A stretch of DNA of 64,000 nucleotides from assembly GCA_950295325.1 (NCBI GenBank), contig OX485804.1:54236429-54300428 (forward strand), read 5' to 3'. The DNA comes from Polytrichum commune. Taxonomy: Eukaryota; Streptophyta; Polytrichopsida; Polytrichales; Polytrichaceae. The notes under the pieces were generated by a model. That model had not been told where the DNA came from, did not search any database, and worked only from the letters and a program-made list of their open reading frames with translations. The position numbers and the translations under genes are program-made. Within the stretch, counting starts at the first letter, position 1. Every line of letters begins with the position of its first letter. Positions 17,455-29,735 of the stretch are shown here, piece by piece.

Positions 17455-17463
17455 ATTACTAGG

Positions 17464-17551
17464 GGAGGGAAGCTATCTTATGAGCGATGAGCAGTGAGCG
17501 GTGAGCGGTGAGCAGTAACACATGAGCAATGAGCAGTAACATATGAGCAAT
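17464..17551 (+). repeat. MULE left TIR with 7-mer repeats
   Basis: After GCTATCTTATGAGC come head-to-tail units GAGCGAT, GAGCAGT, GAGCGGT, GAGCGGT, GAGCAGT, then two looser units separated by AACAYATGAGCAATGA. The right end has the complementary arrangement. Such subterminal tandem motifs usually bind the transposase. Confidence 0.75.
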
Positions 17552-17698
17552 GATTCCAAATTTAGTAAAGACACACGGGTTTAGGGTACACAACCAAAAT
17601 TTTGACAAATTAATTGCATATTTTCAATTGTAAATTGCCAATATTTTAAATGAAGCACAAGTGAAAGGGCCCTATTTCCATAGATCATTTAAAACACT

Positions 17699-17885
17699 TT
17701 CAATTCATTGCTGATTTTTATTATAATAATCCAAACCAATACATGTCATTTATTGACATCCTTATACATGTAGTTACAACCAACACTTGCACAACTACTC
17801 ACATTCCACAACACCATCAAGCTCAAGTAGGTGCATAACCTCATTATACGTACATGTAGGTGCCATAATTGTGAGCCACTCAAAC
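17699..17885 (-). pseudogene. Duplicated terminal exon of the MULE transposase
   Basis: On the minus strand this reads APTCTYNEVMHLLELDGVVE followed by a stop. The transposase itself ends APTYTYNEVMRLLELAGIVE before CE and its stop. The similarity continues downstream through TGCTGATTTTTATTATAA at 17.7 kb and 18.28 kb, so about 190 bp of gene end was duplicated at a spacing near 577 bp. The SWIM finger is not in the copy. It is a non-functional tail lying after the real stop codon. Confidence 0.7.
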
Positions 17886-17964
17886 TGCTCACGGGTTGAA
17901 TTAAGGCCCAAAATCTACAAATGAAAGGAAATTAGATATTAGAAATAGTCAATATGTAGGTAAC

Positions 17965-18185
17965 TACTAGGTTTTGAGACATCCGCCTGTGGATGCGAGT
18001 TGTGTAAGAGACTGGTATTAGGTCTGTATCAACCCGGGTTCGAATCCGGTTGGTTACATTGACTGGTGCTATCCCAAATTGAGCTAGTGATAAAGCAGGA
18101 ATAATTTATAGGCGGATACCAAGAAGACGTTACTACGCGGATGTGCGTAGAATCTTCTCAATTATTTTTTATTTTTAGAAACTTG
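17965..18185 (+). repeat. Possible tRNA-derived SINE remnant
   Basis: GGTTCGAATCC at 18,037-18,047 is a perfect pol III B box, with a poor A-box-like GGATGCGAGT about 38 bp upstream and a T/A-rich tail near 18,165-18,180. No cloverleaf acceptor stem can be formed, so it is not a tRNA gene. It lies between the two copies of the transposase 3' end. Confidence 0.3.
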
Positions 18186-18370
18186 TTATTATTTATCCAT
18201 GTCAATCAATCAAACCGCTCACGGTTGGGTCGTAGTCTAAATAGAAATGAAGTTATTGAATCATTTGAAATACTTCCAGCCCATTGCTGATTTTTATTAT
18301 AAAAATCCAAACAAAAACATGTCATATTTTGACATTCAAATATATGGTACTTAATAGACCATTTGCAATA

Positions 18371-21300
18371 CTACTCACACTCTACAATACCAGCAAGTTC
18401 AAGTAGTCGCATGACCTCGTTATAGGTATATGTAGGTGCATGAATGAATTTGTCACTCTCGTAATCCACCTTGCACAAAAATCTAAACACATAATAAAGA
18501 TGTTTACAATACACCCATTTTCCTTTCTTTTCCAATGCATGAGAGGACATTTTCGTGAAATCCGGGCATGTGCAATGCGGGATGTCGCCAATTGTGACAT
18601 GGTAGGTGATATCCTGCTTGGAGACAATGTTGATTATCACTCCAAAGCCCGGATATGGAATGGCAGTGACCCCAACCACATAGTAACCCTCCATGAGCCC
18701 GGCGCTCTCCCATTTGTTTTTGTGATCCGCTAGCGGTGCTGTTGGATTACGACGCACTGTCTTTCCAAACCTGAATGTAGGGTGGGCGTCCGGGTTTGGT
18801 GGCATAGAAAAATGCGAGCGAAGGATGGGGAGAGTTGCGATTGTTGAAAGCCTACGACGAGGGGACAATGCCTCCCTCTGCTGTAGTTGAAATCCAGCAT
18901 CTTCAAGTGCCAAAACCTCCTCTCGCGATAGATTGGTACCTATCTTCACCGGCCATGTGTTGGGTACTATAGGCCAGTCCAACACATATTTCTTCTTACT
19001 GCCACTCACACAACGTTTGATGTCGTCAGGGCAAAACCAAAATTCATACTCCACATTGTTGGGAGAGCGAAATTCCTTCCTGAGCCCTTTGTATGTTGGA
19101 GCAGGTAATCCATGTTTCCCAGTCCCGACTTTGGCATTGCACATAGTCCCTATGATGGCCTGCAGTGCCCAACATCGTTTGGCTGAGTTGGGTGGTAATC
19201 TTGCAATGTGCCACTTGGAAGCAAGACAATCTGTCTCTAACACGGATGTAGTATGAGCCACACCATGAATTGTAGAACTCAACGATTCCTCTATGCGTTG
19301 ACGAGTTGCTCGGGTGTTCGGACGAGGAATGGAATAGTTCACTTTGTCGGGTCGATGAAAGTCACAATCAACACTCGGTGGTAGGTTGAGTTTGCGTTTG
19401 GTGGAACCAAAGAGCTCTGACCCTTCCAATGCACAATCTCTAGTGTTGACGTCTTCTGCCCCTGGATAAGACTTCATGGCATCGGCCAACATTTTTGGAT
19501 CTCCACACCTGGCAGCCGCTTTGAGTTTCAAGGATGCCGAATCAGGACCTTTACCATCAGACCCCCCTTTCAACCATGTCCGGTAATTTGCAATTTGCAT
19601 GAAGGCACGGATCATGTCGTCCACTATAGCTTCATATAAACAAGTCATCTTGTTGCCGGACTGTTGGAGCCATTTGTTGTGTACAGTTACTGCAAGGTTG
19701 CATGTTGGCATTTCTGCACGCTCTTCTATTGTCATATCCTATGAACAACACACAAATACAAGGATAAGACAAACATAAGATAGATTATATATCTAGGTTT
19801 GGGTCGTTCAACCCAAAATGGCTGCCACGTTTGGGTCGAACGACCCAAACTGCCTACAAGGTTTGGATCGAACAACCCAAACTGCCTACAAGGTTTGGGT
19901 CGATTGACCCAAACTGTTTGTTGTTTGTTATGTACAGTCTCTGCAAGGTTGCATATTGGCATTCCCGCACGCTCTTTTATTGTCATATCCTATGAACAAC
20001 ACAGAAAGACAAAAATAAGAAAAACATAGGATATATTACATTGAATAATGAAGTTTGATATGTATTTACAAGTAGCATATGGCCACCCCATTGTCTGTAA
20101 CGAAAGTGCCAAAATCCCAACCACTCTGAAAGGCCAAGGATGCCTTCTTCGGAGGCAGCTCCAGATGACAACCACCAAGAACGAATAACATGGTACTTGG
20201 TCTCAGCGTCGTCCATTGTTTTCGCGTCTTTGTAATCCTTGCATATTTGTTTGTGTTGAAATTGCAAGGATGGTTTGATATACTTTTGGGTCGCCTTATC
20301 CAAGCTTGCGGACCAATAGAAAAGACATGTACGCTCACGTGCAACCATGGGTAGACTTGGATCACCATCCCCGTAAATCGCCCTCACCGCATTCCAATTA
20401 GCTTGAGCACTATCAGCCATAAACCCTTTGAAGTTTACGTTTGGTACATCATTATCTGCCATGACAGCATTCAAATTTTCCCAAAAGAGAATTTGCGCTG
20501 CACCATCTTCAGATTGCATGTCACAACACGCAATAGTCAATACTTTACAGTATCGACTGTCGTACACATGGCAAGCCATGGTCGTCCAGTCCTTCAAACG
20601 TTTGACATGGTCAAACATAATCCATGAATTCTCCATATCCCCACTGACTTGCATCCTCTTCACAAGCTCCACACCACTACCTGGAAGGTCTACAAACATC
20701 TTGAAAACAAACACTTTGTCCTTTGACTGCCCTGGGAACCGACTACCATGGACGAATTTGAAAGCAGAGTGGTCTTTGAGCGCCATAATACTATCCATAG
20801 TTCCCATTCTACTACGCAAAAAACGCTTTAATCCAGATACAAAGTTACGACAATTTGGAGAGGCAAGAGTGCTGAATTTGTCCATGACGACCTCTAGGGA
20901 TGAACCAACCAAGTGATGGCCTTCGACATTTGCGGGAGATTTGAGAAGGTAATCGGCCAAAAATTGTTTGCTCGCCGCCATAACTATGGCTGAATTTTTT
21001 GCTGTGGGTGTTTTCAATACTTCATTTGCAACGCATTGGTATGCCATGTCCAATGATTCACGGCATGTGCCATTGGCCACAGGGTGATCATGTACACCAA
21101 GATGAATGCAAGCCCTGGACATTCCAACGGATGTGGAGTGAATGTATATGATTCGAGCATTACACAAAGTAATGCACACAGGTGTGGAACGACATACCTT
21201 ACACTCGACAGTGGACTTAGTAGGGGGAACAACACCCACAGCAAATGGGATAGGAGTTGAACCGGCCCATTCAGTGTTGTTCCGGAGGCCCCCATTGCGA

Positions 21301-22213
21301 TTCATGCAATCACAGTAGTCATTATGACATTGGAGATGACCAGCACAAGTAGAGCGCCGGAAGGACAGTCCAAAGTCATTTTGGATATTCGTGGTTTTGG
21401 TGGTGCACCAAGGGTGACCGTCGCACATCTTGTCCATGCCGTCCATTGAGCGGCCATATGTACTTGGAGCTTTGAGTGCCACAGGAGGCAAGAGAAATAA
21501 AACATCACCATTAAAAGAAGATGGTAAGGGCCGGTTCACTTGACTTCACGAACATCTATACTGTCAAAATCAGTGGATGCAAGATCGGACTTTGATCTTT
21601 TTCTTGACTTTGTCAGCTTCAAGGCATCAACCATAGTCAACCCTGTAGATGAAGGTGAAGGGTGTAGTGGAGGACGTTGAGAAGGTGAGATTTGGGGAAC
21701 CACCTTCTTGTACATAAGACCGCAAGGGAATTTGGCTACATGTATAGGAAGTTGGGAAGGAATAAAATGAACACTTCTAAATGGAAATGGCGATGTGTTT
21801 GAAAGATCAACAGATGCACAAATGTCATCTTCTGAATCTGATAGCACAAATACACTATTATCAAGGGGTTCCACCTTAACAGGTGTGATAGAGGGAATTT
21901 GAACTGTGGATGTATCGGATTCGTTTGTCAAAATGATAGTTGAAGCTTGCATTTGAGACTCAGAAAGTCCTATCACCCTAAATGAACCAGGTCCTAAGAT
22001 CCACATAAAACCAACATCAGTTATATTTTTTGGAACCAAAATTGTTTCATACACCTCTCCATCTGCAGAATACATCTCATGCTCTAAATACATGGTTCCT
22101 ATCTGGAAGTTGAATCTCAAACTAAGTAAATCCTCTGAAACACTCACATGACCATCATCTTGGAGTGGCAAGATGAAGGGAACAAAAGATCCATGAGCTC
22201 TAATGGTAGCCAT
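18371..22213 (-). CDS. MULE transposase with SWIM zinc finger, three exons
   Basis: Exons 22,213-21,562, 21,469-20,070 and 19,738-18,371 are in one frame across GT-AG introns of 92 and 331 bp, giving about 1,139 aa. Residues 1-217 are a low-complexity N-terminus with a SUMO-site-like VKVE (112-115), a SIM-like VFVL-SDSEDD (121-130) and a basic KSRKRSK (202-208). Exon 2 starts with a Cys/His-rich zinc segment ending IHLGVHDHPV. The nuclease core follows, with candidate acidic residues in HVYDSRY, FMADSAQANW and a later Glu. Exon 3 holds NLAVTVHNKW and the SWIM motif C-T-C-P...Y-C-K-H-L, the usual C-x-C-xn-C-x-H of MULE transposases, which bind the TIRs and cut DNA in the nucleus. No stop interrupts the frame. 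The first intron is the least certain. The second intron contains a duplicated exon start and four palindromes. Confidence 0.75.
19798..19914. repeat. Four palindromes at 32-bp spacing in a transposase intron
   Basis: Units start at 19,798, 19,830, 19,862 and 19,894, exactly 32 bp apart. Each is a TTTGGGTCG-N2-CGACCCAAA-type palindrome with one or two changes, separated by spacers like CTGCCTACAAGG. The same motif and period form the 15-unit array at 24,651-25,118 in the other gene of the element. Confidence 0.9.
19923..19988 (-). pseudogene. Duplicate of the start of transposase exon 3
   Basis: On the minus strand, after an acceptor-like TTGTTCATAG, it reads DMTIKERAGMPICNLAETVH then NK. 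The exon used at 19,738 reads DMTIEERAEMPTCNLAVTVH then NK. The intron sequence just upstream is duplicated too (spacing about 248 bp). The copy runs into the palindromes without a visible donor, so it is probably a relic, or an alternative exon. It keeps Glu in NLAET, where the open-frame exon has Val. Confidence 0.7.
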
Positions 22214-22735
22214 AGAAAATCAAAAGACCATATGAACAACACATCACAAAAATATTGGGTGAATATTGCTTTTGTATAGAGTTGCGTGAGGAAATGAATG
22301 GAAATGAGAACGTGTGATACAATAATGGATGGAGATGAAAGCGTGTGATACATAGCATCTAATAATACAGAAGTGGACATAATACAATAATAGTCAGAGA
22401 CTATTTACGAGCAAGATATACACAAAATGACGTCAAATACTAAAAGGATTGGTAGAAATTTAAAATATATATGTGTGGACTGACGCAGATGTAGAAAGAA
22501 TTAAAATTGGTTGGAAAAATAAATTATTGATCATTATGAATAGAACAAAGTAGGTGTCAGAAAATTTTGGCGGATATAACAAAAATAAACACATAATGAC
22601 AAACGCGTTAAAATATCTCGTTCATTGAACGCCAATTACAACATGTGATCGTAATATACGCCGGATTTTGTGAGATAGATACATTGGAAGAATAAATGAT
22701 AGTACCTAATAGAAAACATATCATAGACACCAACG
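22214..22735. promoter_or_regulatory. Divergent promoter region between the two MULE genes
   Basis: This 522-bp AT-rich spacer separates the start codons of the transposase (minus) and the methyltransferase-like gene (plus), so it must hold both promoters. It contains a short direct repeat (GAAATGAGAACGTGTGATAC and GAGATGAAAGCGTGTGATAC at about 22,290-22,350). No clear TATA box can be assigned to either start. Confidence 0.5.
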
Positions 22736-23076
22736 ATGGTAGACGATGTAGAGAGAACACCCGTGAGGCTGAAGAGAAGACGTAGGAAAGCTTTGTATTT
22801 CACTTCCGAGAAAAAGAGGTTCAGACTCAGTGTGGGAAAGAATGATGCAAAAAAAGAAGGGAAAAAAAACTTATTGAGTACGGTAGAAGAAACTGTGAAG
22901 ACACTGTATTTTGATGCGATGGAGGATGATGAAGGTGCAAAGAGCAAAGAAGATGTAGACGATCGTAAATCAGAATCCGAATTGAAGACGGGTTCAAAGA
23001 AGACGACAAACAAAAAGGTAAGACAGTTCAACGTTCACATACTTTGATAGTGCATAAGTTGTAAGTTAGGACGGAG

Positions 23077-23800
23077 AACCTTGTACGTTCACTCACATCT
23101 CATGTAGTAGCAATTTATAGAGGTTATAAATTAGAGAGGAGAAACCCTATACGTTAATGCACATGATATATAACAGAAATTTAGGAAGGCTAGAAGTCAG
23201 GAGAAGAACGCACAGGGTTTATAAGAGCAACTTAAGAGACGAGAAGTTGGAAGGCGAAACCATGTGCGTTAACGCACAGGGTTTATAAGAGCAACTTAAG
23301 AGGCGAGAAGTTGGGAGGTGAAACCCTGTACGTTAACGCACAGGGTTTATAAGAGCAACTTAGGAGGCAAAAAGTGGGAAGACGAAACCCTGTGCGTTAA
23401 TGAACAGGGTTTATAAGAGCAACTTAGGAAAGCCAAAGTTGGGAGGAGAAACCCTGTGCGTTAACGCACAGGGTTTATAAGCGCAACATAGGAAGGCCAA
23501 AGTTGGGAGGAGAAACCCTGTGCGTTAACGCATAGGGTTTGTAAGAGCAACTTAATAAGGCCAAAAGTTGGGAGGAGAAATCCTGTGCGTTAACGCACAG
23601 GATTTATAAGCGCAACATAGGAAGGCCAAAGTTGGGAGGAGAAACCCTGTGCATTAACGCACAGGGTTTGTAAGCGCAACTTAGGAAGGCCAAAGTTGGG
23701 AGGTAAAACCCTGTGCGTTAACGCACAGGGTTTGTAAGAGCAATTTAGGATGGCCAAAAGTTGGGAGGTAAACCCTGTGCGTTAACGCACAGGGTTTGTA
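23077..23800. repeat. Palindrome array, 64-bp period, in intron 1 of the cargo gene
   Basis: Nine well-kept units share the palindromic core CCTGTGCGTTAACGCACAGG, extended to 28 bp by AAA/TTT-side bases. Centres lie at about 23,270, 23,334, 23,398, 23,462, 23,526, 23,591, 23,655, 23,719 and 23,783, a 64-bp period. Three older units upstream (about 23,088, 23,155, 23,206) are degraded. Between palindromes the linker reads GTAAGAGCAACTTAGGA...GGCCAAAGTTGGGAGG. Confidence 0.9.
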
Positions 23801-24246
23801 AGAGCAATTTAGGATGGCCAAAAGTTGGGAGGTAAAACGACTAGGAGAGCCTAAAATTAAAACAAATATCTATTGTATGAATTTAAATCGATGTTCAGAA
23901 CATAGGAGCAAAAAAACTATTCAAAACGAGGTTAGAATGCAATAAATGACAAATATGACTATTCAAGTACTCATGCAATACGTTATAGGAGCTAGAAAAT
24001 GACACAAAATAGCATAAATGTTTTTTTGCCCCGAAATCCAAAATTTACGAGGTGGCCCAAAACAAGGAAATAGATAGAAGAATGAGAAAAGAAAATCATT
24101 TCAAACCAAAAAAAAATATCAGAAGAATTTGTAGCTACGGATATTTAGATAATATAGCATTTTTTATTTATATTTTTTTATCCCATTAGCATTTTTTCCA
24201 GAGTTTACAAGTTTTGGCAATCTACGAATTCCAGATTCACGTCTCG

Positions 24247-24434
24247 TCCCTGTGCGTTAACGCACAGGGTCTATGTGCTAACGCACAAGGTGTATGCGGT
24301 AACGCATAGTGGCTAGAAAGTTCCCAGCGCAGACCCTGTGCGTTAACGCACAGGGTCTACTTGCCTAGCTAGGCAAAGTTCGGCAAGTAGACCCTGTGCG
24401 TTAACGCACAGGGTCTGCGCTGGGAACTTTCTAG
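24247..24434. repeat. Nested palindrome with 53-bp arms
   Basis: Arms 24,313-24,365 and 24,382-24,434 are perfect inverted copies with a 16-bp loop. Each arm itself contains the CCTGTGCGTTAACGCACAGG palindrome. The loop side holds GCCTAGCTAGGC, also a palindrome. Just left (24,247-24,306) are one perfect and two decayed copies of the same core. In RNA this would fold into a strong hairpin or a cruciform-like cross. Confidence 0.9.
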
Positions 24435-24650
24435 AGGCTATGCGGGGCCACGAAGAGCCATGCTAAATATGGCTGCAGGGACAAGTAGTATAAATTGCCA
24501 CAACCCCAAAGCATTCAATCTTTTTTCTCTCCTCCGTCGGACCTGAGCTCATCGCTGCAAGCTCTCTCATCAACAGGTGCAGTACAAGGTTTGTTTGCAC
24601 TTTCGTGGTGACTGGGTAATTGCGCATAATCAGGCGTAAATTGCGGACAG

Positions 24651-25118
24651 TTTGGGTCGGCCGACCCAAACTGTGAGCATGGTTTGGGTCGATCGACCCA
24701 AACTGTGAGCATGGTTTGGGTCGATCGACCCAAACTGTCTACCTAGTTTGGGTCGAACGACCCAAATTGTGTGCCTAGTTTGTGTCGGCCGACCCAAACT
24801 GTAAGCATGATTTGGGTCGGTCGACCCAAACTGTAAGCATGGTTTGGGTCGGTCGACACAAACTGTCTACCTAGTTTGGGTCGGCCGACCCAAACTGTAA
24901 GCATGGTTTGGGTCGGTCGACACAAACTGTCTACCTAGTTTGGGTCGGTCGACACAAACTGTCTACCTAGTTTGGGTCGGTCGACACAAACTGTCTACCT
25001 AGTTTGGGTCGGCCGACCCAAACTGTAAGCATGGTTTGGGTAGGTCGACCCAAACTGTCTACCTAGTTTGGGTCGGTCGACCCAAACTGTGACCAGGGTT
25101 TGGGTCGTTCGACCCAAA
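24651..25118. repeat. 15-unit palindrome array, exact 32-bp period
   Basis: Units begin at 24,651 and recur every 32 bp to 25,099. Each is a TTTGGGTCG-NN-CGACCCAAA palindrome (centre GGCC-, GATC- or GGTC-type). Linkers alternate between CTGTGAGCATGG, CTGTAAGCATGG and CTGTCTACCTAG types. Several units carry the same CGACAC change, so the array grew by local duplication. It is in intron 1 of the cargo gene, with a four-unit version in the transposase intron. Confidence 0.95.
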
Positions 25119-28100
25119 TCTCGCGTCCAACTTTGTTAGACCTGTAGTTGGACGCACAGGGTCTGGCCTTGTAGTTTTGGAATGAGCGGCCACCCTAATC
25201 GTACAATATTTAAAGGTGCAAATGACTGTGTCTAGAATAATTTTTGTCATTCTTCCTTGTGTTTGTGGTATTCTGTTGTTATTGTTGTTGTTATTGCTGT
25301 TGTTTTTGTAATGTTATTGCTAATGTGTTGCTACTTGTTTTGAAATGTTTATGAAACTTATTTCATTTGTTTTAGGACCAATCAATGGATTTTGAAAGAA
25401 CGACTCCTATTTCTACTGATGATGATTCCACAATGCATTCAACTCAAGATCGTCCATCTCAACAAGTTCATCATCATCAGGACATATCGTCAAATTTTTA
25501 TAATAAGAAAAAGAAAAAAATAAATGAATACCTCGATGATTTTGATTCGGATGAAGATAATGATGGTGACAATAAAACTTATCAAGAGAAAGTGTGGGAG
25601 CTTACGAACAAACGAAAGGTCAATTCCACTTCCACAATTTCTTCAATCCGTGCTGGACGTAATGCTCGCTTGCGTGTACCCTTATGTCGCATGGTTTCTA
25701 TGCCGATTGTGCGTCCTGCTTTGAAGGGTGACATTACTAAATTGGAGGCTGATTTTTTCAATGGTTATCGTGATGGTGACCGTGTGTTTTATATATCGGC
25801 CACCGATTCTAAGGGAAACTTTTAATTCGTGGATAATGAGGTTCGCGCATCTTGGAGCCTAAATTGGGCTCAAGCCAATGCCCTATTTGAATCTCAATTG
25901 GATACAGATTTGTCATTGACGTCATACAAGAACAAGATGTTTTTCATATGGGATGGAAATCACAGATTTCTTGCTTAGAAAAATTATATTGACCGCGTAT
26001 GTACCGAAGATTATGAACGTCATGTTTTTGTGGATTCTATCATTTTGGCGCCCGAGCCTGACGACATTCCAAGTTTGTTGACTGCTATGCATGACATCAA
26101 CAAGTAATGTTCTTACCTATTTTTTTACACTTATTTCTAGTTTATATTTTTTTTTCCAAATTATATTATCATGAATCTAATCAATTTAATGTTTCTTTTA
26201 GGTCAATCGAAAATTCTCACGTATCCACCAATTTGGTGCATACTTTATATCGGATGCAAAGTATTGGCACCATGCCTTTGACTTCCTTCAGAAAGCAACT
26301 GGATCCAAAGAGTTATAAACGATGTGAGGAGAAGTCCGTCGAAACTTGGTATTCTTTTACACGATCAATTTTTTTGAATTACATGTACAGTGTAAGTTCT
26401 TCTACCATTGCTAATATGTGCCTTATGTTTATTCACCTTCATTTTACATTACATCTATATGAACTTATAAATATTGACTTTTGTTTGATTTTTCAGCAAG
26501 AACTTGCTGAGGCTAGCGATATTGCTCTCAACCAGTACAATGAAACTCATCCTCTTGAACGGACATCAGACGGAGTTTCAAAAGCAATGTCCGCAGCTGT
26601 CAACAAAAAACGTGCAATGTTATCTTCTAGTTTTACGAAACAACTAGCGATTGCCAATATCAACCTTACCTCTACTTTTCTTGAAGAAGTTAAGCACATT
26701 GGGGTTCATTTTCGGTGCCTGAAATGCTACAAGAGAAACTTCATCGTGTTGCTATCAGTAATGTGGATGCAGAAGTCAAAGTTAGATGCCTCAAGCTTTG
26801 GAATGACAATAGATTTGATAAAGATGCATTGCATTTCCCGAAATCGCCCCTCTCTAATTCTGCACTTGATGATTGGTTATCAAAGTCTACATATTGGGCA
26901 CAGTTGGAAAAAAATGCTATCGAAGAGCTTCAAAGTATTCTTTCATCTCCTCTTCAGTTGCCTGCAGATGTGCCTACTCTCTCCGAGCATATCCAAACCT
27001 GGAAGTTTGTGGCTTTCAATTCAATATTCTATCGTGAATTCCAAAGCGGAAAAGTTAAAAAACACAACGGTTGGGATGAGCAACCTAATATTGATCTTGC
27101 TATGAAACGTGTATTATACAGGTACAATCTAATCTTATTATTTTTTTGATTTTTTTTATTCCATTTGTCAAATTGTCATGGAATATTTGACTTACAATAT
27201 TTTTGTATGTAGGTATTTTTGATATGTTTTGATTCCACATAAATGCGTTATAGGGGAACCTCGTTTTTTCCCAAATTGGCGTGACACTGGTGCAGGAGAT
27301 TCATGCATGTTCACTACTGATATTTGTTTGGATTGGTCGCTCCCACATTATGAGGATTGTGGTTGGTATCTTGATTGTCCTAAGGATGCATGTCCGTCAA
27401 GTGAGAAGACAATCCGTCAGATAAATGATGCTAAAAATGTGGATCCTCGTGATACTGCAATTTTGCAAGCACAAATTGTGCAGCTTAAACTTAGAGAGCC
27501 AGAACCAAAAGAGACAAAACGTCGTAAGAGGAAACATGTTCCTGAAACCAAAATATAAGATCAATCGGAAATTTTACAACATGAAGAATTGCTTGTTCTT
27601 TCCAATGATTTGGATAAGAATCCACTTGGAGGCGAAAGTTCAAAGTCTGGGTGCAATGTATTGGAATTCCATTACTCGAGCACCTATGACGCTATTCATC
27701 GTGCGCCAACGAATTTTTTGAGAAAAGAGTTATTCATACTGAAGAACTTTCTCACGCTCTCTTTTGCTCGATCTACTGCTGTCAAGAACAAGTCTGAAGG
27801 GGTTGAAGTAGGCCCTCCTGAGTGGATCCAATGGCGGACATTTCTTGAAAACGTAAGTATTATTGTTTTGGTATTTTCTGTAATGTTCTTACTTTCATTT
27901 GGATTTTATTTTGTGTCTTATATTGTGATATGTTGTGGTATTTCAGTTCAAAGACAATCGCGAATTTCATGTCATGGGAAGTCCGACTCCATTTGCCGTT
28001 GACTTGGTTTTTCTGCAATTTCCCGACGGTCTTGACTTCAACCTCTCCAATAGACCTGCTGAAATTCCTCTTTGGAATAAATATGACAAGAACTGGATGG

Positions 28101-29214
28101 TTGCAACAATGTCCTTGTGCAAGTCCATCTTGTCTGATGATGGCGTCCTCATAGTATTTTCTGCTATCGATATGCAAACCAAGAAGGTTTTGAATTCAAC
28201 CTTACACAACGGCAACATGAAAGTTCTTAGGACTTCTATTTGCCTCAATTCGTACATGGTGTTCAAGGATCCGGAGTCTCCAATCTACACCGTAAGTATA
28301 ACATATCACAATTGTTTCTATTTAATTATTTTGGTGTTATTTGCATTGTATATAGTTTTAACACAATTTATATTTTTTTGTAGACTCCGGCATTTATGGC
28401 TCATATCTTGGTAAGGGATTTTACTACCACAAAATCCACGAGACAACCAAACTCCACTTTTTTTGGCACTGGATTGAAAAGCAAAAACTTGCTTTTCAAT
28501 TTTGTGGATGAAAAAAACATGCTTCTTCAAAAATCGGGAAGACCTTGGAGGGGGCCATATCAAAAATCGCCGCGTTTTTTTCAAGATCTTATTGAATTGT
28601 TTACACCATCGAATGGACGCGTTGTTGATTTGACATGTTCCACTGGAGCTTCTATCCTAGCAACACGCGCATGTGGCAGACATCTTCTTGCATTTGAGGG
28701 TGATAATGACATGTTTGAGCACATATTGAAACCGCTTTTGGAAAACGTTTTGAAAGAGGGGTCATCTAAGGAGAATATACAAGATCTCACAAAAGAAGAT
28801 GATAACCTCTCAGATGAGGAGATGCTTGAATTTGAGTGTGAGTAAGTTTTAATACAATAAATTTTTATTCAATTCATTCGTTTCATTCAATTCATTGGTT
28901 CATTTTTATTTCTTCACATTATTTACATGTTTCATCGATTTGATTTCAGGAATACGATTGGAAAGAGGACATGTCTCCCGTTTTGGGCACATAGACAATT
29001 CCTACGAAGTCCAAGCCGTAGCCCGCGTCTCCCATCATATGCCGAGAATGTTGCAATTGCAATGTTGAATCTCGAAGATTCGGATCCAAATGAAGAATCT
29101 TGCTATAGTTCCAAAATCAATTCGCAATGCAAAGGTGCTCGAATATATATAGATGACGAGGCAAAAGATAGTTTCATGTCTAGTGCTACTACTGATGAAT
29201 AAATTTTTGGACTT

Positions 29215-29399
29215 CATGTTGTTTATCCTTCTCAACCCTCTTATTACTAAACCCTAAAATCATCATTTTTAAGGCCACAATTCCACGGTTATAGGATATT
29301 GGTGGCCCTATTACCAAAATTTTCATCTTCCTCACTGCTCATAAGTTACCGCTCATCGCTCACCGCTCATTGCTCACCGCTCATAAGATAGCACTCCCC
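29215..29399 (+). repeat. MULE right subterminal region and TIR
   Basis: The block CCACGGTTATAGGATATTGGTGG...ATTACC is followed by CACTGCTCATAAGTTACC and tandem CCGCTCA-type 7-mers, ending GATAGCACTCCCC. The whole block recurs at 52,925-53,133 and, inverted, at 39,503-39,660, showing that these are ends of the same family. Confidence 0.8.
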
Positions 29400-29408
29400 A
29401 TTACTAGG

Positions 29409-29735
29409 GGGACGGGAGTAGTAGTGGCATCAAGCCAATTGTGAGTTGGCATTAGTTCATTCAAAGTTTAGGATAGCAAGGGTAGGGGGTTCATGATTTA
29501 ATATTGGTGTGTAATGATTGAGGAGCACAAGGTAGTAGAGTATTTATCAATACTTGAACCTTGGGCTACTTAAATAAAGGTTGTGTGCTTGAATACTCGT
29601 GTTGAGAAAGCTTGGATGTCAAGTGTGATAGCCAAGTGAGGTGAATAAAGTGCATGTGAGCTTTAGGCGTCCACCCGGACTACGACGCATAAGGGTGGGG
29701 GTTTATGGTTGACACCACGCTACCGTGACCATCCC
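29409..29735 (+). repeat. Right half of a repeat split by the MULE
   Basis: GAGTATTTATCAATACTTG, then CTTAAATAAAGG...TGTGTGCTTGAA and GGACTACGACGCATAAGGGTGGGGGTTTA are matched in the same order at about 38,505-39,075, where the repeat is itself split by a MITE. The block resembles the end of an LTR (TATTTAT promoter-like, AATAAA-like), but no pair of LTRs was found. Confidence 0.5.

Follow-up and report, generated by a model that had tools for sequence, protein, structure and literature searches.

A methyltransferase-derived cargo protein and family-specific palindromic arrays in a two-gene transposon of Polytrichum commune: a possible counterpart of the VANC system

What would a plant transposon do with a protein that looks as if it had been assembled from parts of bacterial DNA-modification systems? 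The question is raised by a stretch of 64,000 nucleotides from Polytrichum commune (GenBank assembly GCA_950295325.1, contig OX485804.1, positions 54,236,429 to 54,300,428 of the forward strand; this whole stretch is called the window, and all coordinates below refer to it). Positions 17465-29399 of the window are a single element with terminal inverted repeats (TIRs) that carries two divergent genes, one for a transposase with a SWIM-like finger and one, the cargo, for a protein in which a ParB/Srx-like block appears to be joined to a domain derived from a DNA methyltransferase (MTase). A preliminary description, made from the letters of the sequence, had seen here a Mutator-like transposon that might use such a protein to mark, bind or protect its own DNA. 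To our knowledge, the best-described way in which a plant transposon recognises and un-silences its own DNA is embodied in one protein family, VANC. The reading that we favour, at a probability of roughly one half and by analogy with that family, is that the cargo is a self-recognising DNA-binding and probably anti-silencing factor, which would work like VANC with an unrelated protein.

The two TIRs (left, 17465-17533 on the plus strand; right, 29331-29399 on the minus strand) align over 17472-17533 against 29392-29331 with 55 of 62 positions identical (E 2e-15), and comparison of copies supports both, near-identical left ends being present in L009, L010, L039 and L040. The element is flanked by a 10-bp target-site duplication, ATTACTAGGG, at 17455-17464 and, repeating the left flank, at 29400-29409. 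Equivalent ends with 10-bp duplications were found in four other copies, two of the family to which the window element belongs (family A; L009+L004 and L010+L005) and two (B13 and B16) of a sister family (family B; L013-L016), the duplications of these four being ATTTGCATTC (where 11 bp is possible), CATGTTAGTC, TCTGTTACCT and, in the one copy with a mismatch, the pair TAAAGATCTA/TAAAGATCCA. The right end and a duplication within the 9-11 bp originally given thus stand, while the left end, first placed at 17464, moves by one base.

The host assembly that was searched has 408 Mb; the window sits on its contig C2, and its contig C8 (146,561 bp) bears rbcL, tRNA-Arg(ccg) and accD in succession, a plastid gene order of the bryophyte type. 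In this assembly at least 40 copies were found of the MTase exon (98-100% identity; 40 scored of 148 candidates), of cargo exon 1 (95-100%, of 149 candidates) and of the transposase (97-100%, of 1004 candidates). Of the 40 best transposase copies, at least 23 are accompanied within 12 kb, on the other strand, by one of the cargo copies listed; this is a lower bound, each of the two cargo lists holding 40 of its 148 or 149 candidates; the MTase exon itself is listed within 25 kb of 22 of these 40, at 7.0-8.7 kb in 21 cases and at 19 kb in one. Because of this pairing and the near-constant distance, we regard the transposase-cargo pair as a trait of the family and not as the accident of one insertion. 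The single element with TIRs, target duplication, SWIM-type transposase and divergent cargo that had been proposed is therefore borne out by the ends, the copies and the pairing of the genes.

The cargo gene lies on the plus strand at 25385-29202, divergent from the transposase, and in an exon model derived from aligning the window with eight other copies it comprises about 1,075 codons in seven exons, with GT-AG bounds in the window copy (four splice sites have decayed among the eight others). Exon 1 (25385-26103) encodes the ParB/Srx-like block with the segment DGNHR, and exon 2 (26202-26391) is recognisable in family B and in C17, a member of a divergent group (group C; L017-L019). Exons 3 (26497-27121) and 4 (27213-27852) lead to exon 5 (27947-28291), which holds the region of MTase motif IV (VFLQFPDG), to exon 6 (28384-28841), with the PWRG segment and the region of motif I (VVDLTCSTGAS), and to exon 7 (28950-29202), which encodes the C-terminus; these last three are placed by copy alignment, exon 5 also by profile alignment and exon 6 by profile matches. 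The window copy is a pseudogene, with two premature stops in exon 1, two in exon 4 and a frameshift caused by a one-base deletion in exon 3, and all nine cargo copies examined are damaged, the least so being L004 with one premature stop. Between C17 and C18 the ratio of non-synonymous to synonymous substitutions (dN/dS) is 0.119 (412 codons, dS 1.14, dN 0.136); in this pair, the only one measured, the cargo is under strong purifying selection, pairs involving C19 being saturated in dS.

The descent of the cargo from a beta-class N6/N4 DNA methyltransferase we consider secure on the strength of profile comparisons. Residues 772-951 of the family A protein match Pfam PF01555 (N6_N4_Mtase) at E 0.008, below the cut-off, and the phage DNA methyltransferase family phrog_67 at E 2.2e-6. 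A search of the genome with PF01555 returned 118 matches at E up to 10, and seven new loci were read, which gave family B and group C; the cargoes of A, B and C are collinear and share about 21-44% amino acid identity over the aligned pieces. Family B passes the PF01555 cut-off of 26.7 bits, L014 with 35.3 bits (E 1.5e-8, mainly in the motif I part) and L013 with 30.6 bits across profile positions 1-216 of 221. A joint profile of A, B and C matches PDB entry 5hfj at E 7e-10 (5hfj and 5hek, 'Adenine specific DNA methyltransferase (DpnA)', are presumably M1.HpyAVI). When the relative L034, described below, is added, the profile matches CcrM (6pbd) at E 1.2e-5 across positions 4-219 of 226. The order motif IV, PWRG, motif I is present in the cargo. 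Among phages, tblastn with the MTase open reading frame (ORF) of family B gave weak matches only (best E 0.1), and four scans of viral contigs returned no relative. For an ORF upstream in L013, a reading as kinase-like had no support from Pfam and was rejected. Separately, strong N6_N4_Mtase matches (98.5, 68 and 55.4 bits) lie on the small contigs C10 and C12, which are perhaps bacterial contaminants of the assembly.

In active enzymes of this type the catalytic motif IV reads D/N/S-P-P-Y/F/W, and its aromatic residue holds the flipped base. In all six aligned cargoes the motif instead reads [D/Q]-x-P-[D/E], opposite the DPPY of CcrM in the profile alignment, with the first Asp replaced by Gln in family A and an acidic residue at the aromatic position throughout. 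The first Gly of motif I is kept in family B only; all six retain the TG of that motif, as well as the acidic residues that follow the next strand. A catalytic site that is altered yet conserved, together with purifying selection, is what would be expected of a protein that keeps DNA binding, and perhaps cofactor binding, with its chemistry lost or changed, and we infer such a history for the cargo. The rival that survives best takes the cargo for a working methyltransferase, of the N6-adenine or N4-cytosine kind, that marks its own element under the guidance of the ParB-like block, as has been suggested in print for a protein of Ectocarpus (in the part of PMC12477816 available). The beta-class ancestry and the conserved motif I residues would suit it, but the altered motif IV and the first motif I Gly, lost outside family B, speak against an enzyme; we consider enzymatic marking unlikely, and less likely than DNA binding with an anti-silencing effect. 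One caveat to the motif IV argument, and a point against the binding reading, is that L013, one of the four family B copies and outside the alignment, has a Tyr at the acidic position, without the first Pro; because its three sister copies have Asp, this is probably a change in a single copy. Of the roles first suggested for the protein, it is binding that the altered motif would favour; nothing in these data shows marking or protection.

The N-terminal part of the protein is less firmly placed. The ParB/Srx fold contains a GxHR-type active-site block, and the assignment made here rests on the conserved DGNHR block, which is kept in four of four cargoes that are 35-44% identical to one another. 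The best profile hint, at E 0.099, is to phrog_1033, a 'ParB-like partition protein'; nothing in Pfam, NCBIfam or PDB matched significantly, and AlphaFold gave no usable model (pLDDT 36 for the window exon alone, 33 with L034). Against phages the best E was 0.6, and no match in viral contigs was significant. The ParB/Srx fold is therefore not confirmed. The preliminary description, which had named a DGNHR segment, the motif order given above and a ParB-like plus methyltransferase-like protein, was right about both motifs and about the methyltransferase ancestry; of the checks it proposed, profile search did find the N6_N4_Mtase family, while profile search and structure prediction left the ParB half where it was. 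An element of group C with a different layout (L027+L019, G000:C3:47767000-47782600) has its transposase and MTase cargo in one orientation, and the search of it revealed no ParB exon.

Between the two genes of the window element lie two arrays of tandem repeats whose units contain palindromes: A1 (23207-23832; 64-bp units, palindrome AAACCCTGTGCG-TTAA-CGCACAGGGTTT), with more copies of the palindrome at 24230-24417, and A2 (24649-25118; 32-bp units, palindrome AGTTTGGGTCG-GT-CGACCCAAACT). A short array at 19798-19917, between two transposase segments and probably in an intron, carries the palindrome TTTGGGTCG-N2-CGACCCAAA. The consensus units give CCCTGTGCG-TTAA-CGCACAGGG for A1 and TTTGGGTCG-N2-CGACCCAAA for A2, TTTGTGCGC-N2-GCGCACAAA for family B, GTGTCTCGG-N2-CCGAGACAC for C17 and GGGTCTCGG-AT-CCGAGACCC for L034. 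Each unit was compared with 2000 mononucleotide shuffles, counting those that reached the observed score; the units are a subset of the tandem-repeat (TRF) arrays of these elements and were picked after the palindromes had been seen. The score was reached by 0 shuffles for A1, 0 for A2, 1 for B, 10 for C17 and 0 for L034, so that A, B, C17 and L034, four of the five cargo types tested, have a significant palindrome in their arrays, each type a different one; the fifth type is C18. For a second array of C17 the count was 46 of 2000. No significant palindrome was seen in four further arrays of these elements (159 to 1729 of 2000) or in four from other parts of the window (tested as five rows, one array accounting for two). 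In A and B the two genes flank the arrays, in L034 the array is upstream of the gene, and the C17 array lies among cargo coding pieces, probably in an intron. Across types the half-site TGTGCG-N4-CGCACA is common to A1 and B, and TCTCGG-N2-CCGAGA to C17 and L034.

L034 (CADCWO010000058.1) is a contig binned to a cyanobacterial metagenome assembly which carries a relative of the cargo, the only one among 199 pattern matches, and which is probably eukaryotic, given its GT-AG introns. Both its ParB exon and its MTase exon are open, and some 155 bases upstream of the gene, at the contig start, there is a palindromic array. Because L034 was found by protein similarity alone, its array counts as an independent observation.

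Genome-wide, exact sites number 543 for the A1 type, 9,731 for A2 (20-bp core), 17 for B and 997 for C17, with 0 for each reversed-pattern control. Each of the 17 B sites is 6.1-7.1 kb away from one of eight loci that rank among the eleven best chromosomal matches to PF01555; four of these eight loci were read, and all four are family B. Among the 100 A2 sites listed, the palindrome is retained on spacings that vary from 32 to 78 bp.

The comparison of families A and B bears on how protein and arrays are related. Family B has the same left TIR as A and a similar right TIR (79% over 62 bp). When the window element is aligned to one B copy by blastn (plus strand, low-complexity sequence filtered, E up to 1e-5), homologous DNA extends over 17465-22261 (84-96%), except for an array-bearing gap at 19774-19923, and again over 29216-29399 (85%). 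Between these flanks, over 22262-29215, there is no detectable DNA homology: this putative cassette contains the arrays plus the cargo, and of its two borders one is a short way upstream of where the transposase starts, the other 14 bases past the cargo stop codon. The transposase differs little (central segment, dS 0.47 and dN/dS 0.15; last segment, dS 0.37 and dN/dS 0.11; for the first segment the values of dN/dS 0.38 and dS 0.86 are unreliable, the B fragment changing frame), whereas the cargoes are 30-38% identical, with dS about 2 or more, or saturated. In this pair, the only one compared, arrays and cargo have thus changed jointly, the transposase having stayed nearly the same. Exchange of arrays plus cargo as one cassette would be the simplest account, the alternative being very fast divergence of both.

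The same comparison bears on a second rival, in which the cargo is a partner of the transposase (a factor of the transpososome or of integration, comparable to mudrB of maize) and the arrays serve as sites of the transposase or of the promoters. In its favour are the divergent gene pair with arrays between the promoters and the cargo copies that accompany at least 23 of 40 copies of the transposase. However, arrays and cargo change together, with a transposase core that is still 86-91% identical, and the C17 array sits within the cargo, probably in an intron; for these two reasons the transposase does not track the array sites, and we think this rival improbable.

In the mechanism that we propose, a two-gene cut-and-paste element, MULE-like in its ends (MULE, Mutator-like element), would make two proteins, a transposase and an accessory protein about 1,075 residues long in which a ParB/Srx-like block is joined to a domain from a beta-class DNA methyltransferase. 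The accessory protein would bind, probably as a dimer, to family-specific palindromes in arrays beside or inside its own gene, load onto the element and counter host silencing, whereupon the transposase and cargo genes could be expressed. A VANC-type function is proposed because each of the VANC traits named below, apart from binding, has a counterpart here. A more ambitious version, which we put forward tentatively and rate below even odds, would make this a second, non-homologous VANC-type system from bacterial parts in transposons of the plant lineage: a ParB-like protein with a disabled methyltransferase would recognise parS-like palindromic arrays, spread or load there and keep the element active, and array and protein would be traded as one specificity cassette, so that families differ by cassette and not by transposase.

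Several observations weigh against the proposed DNA-binding, anti-silencing role. Changes from the majority in the nine cargo copies (window 25385-29202 and L001-L008) are mostly C-to-T or G-to-A, at 1.7-4.8% in CG, 1.8-5.5% in CHG and 1.5-4.0% in CHH contexts, with transitions at A/T at only 0.04-0.7%; such decay in all contexts probably means that the elements were methylated at cytosines in every context. Within the A2 motif, CpG positions decay at about 2.0% each (397 decayed sites, 9,731 intact), a rate similar to that of CpGs in the cargo coding region, and show no sign of protection; one non-CpG decayed form (76 sites, about 0.4% per position) is rarer, and as selection, homogenisation of the arrays and a lack of methylation could each produce this, we draw no conclusion from it. 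The C18 array, downstream of the cargo, has no significant palindrome (290 of 2000 shuffles); in C19 the arrays of the part scanned were all of short period; and a ParB exon was seen in neither of the two. For the C17 motif, two of six clusters (among the 50 sites listed) begin less than 6 kb from a PF01555 match. The A2 palindrome is not private to the cargo and also fills a different element, D616, and the transposase itself could bind the arrays. The last rival, that the arrays are ordinary minisatellites or hairpin-forming DNA spreading alone and that the cargo has a role apart from them, for instance in blocking RNA silencing or repair by the host, would draw on this presence of the A2 palindrome in at least two element types and in a probable intron, on its many exact sites and on the C18 array, but it is improbable in view of the identical palindrome on different spacers, the eight other arrays tested that lack a significant palindrome (though the second C17 array reached 46 of 2000) and the B palindrome, which is found only beside B-like cargo.

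The element D616 (L022 and L023; G000:C1:613600-630500) contains 38 exact TTTGGGTCG-N2-CGACCCAAA sites in several arrays, some of them in a probable intron, and has one ORF with a DGQH block and one with an NLI-type phosphatase domain (E 4.5e-15). The A2 palindrome is thus abundant in more than one element type, and among the sites listed it occurs in tandem at various periods. At L024 (G000:C1:474800-479600) a truncated cargo start adjoins an A2-type array, separated from the rest of the element.

The transposase is encoded on the minus strand in three open segments. The first, from an ATG (21536-22213) and with a provisional junction to the central segment, is 71-76% identical to B (tblastn) and 35% to C19; the central segment (19986-21542), with the putative DDE region, is 86% identical to B and 54% to C19, and the last (18371-19735), with the SWIM-like finger, 91% and 46% at the amino acid level. 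A reading of the C19 transposase as an intronless gene was dropped, as the long frame probably runs through an intron. MULEs are recognised by TIRs plus a target duplication of 8-11 bp, and a SWIM zinc finger at the C-terminus of the transposase is a MULE trait found in some other superfamilies too. The ends of this element, with a 62-bp TIR match and 10-bp duplications in five copies (one mismatched), are MULE-like. Within the protein, a CxC...CxH pattern is visible in the SWIM-like region, and Pfam PF04434 matches at E 0.08 in the window and 0.023 in a trimmed group C piece, both below the cut-off, and goes unreported for the longer C19 piece. The MULE DDE domain PF10551, which matches 142 other places of the same genome, gave no reported match in the window segments (limit E 5) or in the group C segment (limit E 10, HMMER filters dropping most matches above 0.1), and a shallow hhalign comparison of the transposase with two local MULE types gave none. 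The label Mutator-like, as first applied, therefore describes the TIRs and duplications well, and membership of the superfamily by sequence is not proven.

If the proposed role is correct, plants would have, besides VANC, a second solution to the same problem, made from bacterial DNA-modification parts and with candidate binding sites that can be read from the sequence. A published guess on ParB-methyltransferase accessory proteins would become directly testable, with candidate sites at hand and sister cassettes as built-in specificity controls, and the cassette might offer tools for sequence-specific work on the epigenome.

A cargo of this type is already in print. In the portions available of the literature searched (including PMC6446971, PMC13317346, PMC5512222, PMC5735166 and PMC12477816) we found no such cargo in a SWIM/MULE-like element of a land-plant-like genome, and neither an altered motif IV, nor palindromic arrays with such a cargo, nor joint exchange, which is no proof of absence. 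The statement in the preliminary description that no MULE was known with this cargo may thus be literally true, although the cargo type has been described from transposons of brown and, by citation there, of green and red algae (PMC12477816, as far as available). What looks new, on the same portions, is the cassette-like sister element, the type-specific palindromic arrays and the cargo dN/dS of 0.12 in one pair.

According to the accessible part of that paper, the Ectocarpus element Sola1-1 encodes a protein with ParB-like and methyltransferase parts, its gene lying opposite the transposase, and the same cargo type occurs in green and red algal transposons (Iyer 2011; Petroll 2025, as cited in PMC12477816). 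The protein studied here resembles that of Sola1-1 in its domain pair (the ParB part being unconfirmed here), in size (1104 amino acids there, about 1,075 here) and in its strand opposite the transposase. The elements differ, by their descriptions, in that the Ectocarpus one belongs to the Sola1 superfamily, whereas ours has a SWIM-type transposase and a 10-bp duplication; arrays, altered catalytic residues and cassette exchange, seen here, are not described for it in the part of PMC12477816 available. The bacterial fusion Bce_0392, for whose ParB part nicking activity is reported (cited in PMC5512222, as far as that text was available), likewise joins a ParB-type block to a DNA methylase, and differs in being bacterial. 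With the beta-class DNA methyltransferases (5hfj/5hek and CcrM, 6pbd) the cargo shares, at the level of profiles, the stretch between motifs IV and I, which follow each other in the same order; unlike them it has altered DPPY and FxGxG motifs, added ParB-like and middle parts, and an intron-rich gene.

The closest functional parallel would be VANC of the Arabidopsis VANDAL elements, which, in the available part of the description, binds a short motif in non-coding tandem repeats, the motifs differing between families and one occurring in an unrelated element, and which is much less conserved than VANA (PMC5735166). VANC has DUF1985/DUF287 and neither ParB nor methyltransferase parts, and its 9-bp motif, YAGTATTAY, is not palindromic; because no Pfam match to DUF1985/DUF287 was found in the cargo proteins at E 5 or better, we take cargo and VANC to be unrelated. 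The function of VANC was shown by experiment, whereas that of the cargo is inferred here. Like VANC, the cargo is the product of the second gene of its element, here a MULE-like one, is accompanied by family-specific short motifs in non-coding tandem repeats, diverges faster than the transposase, and has one motif in common with an unrelated element.

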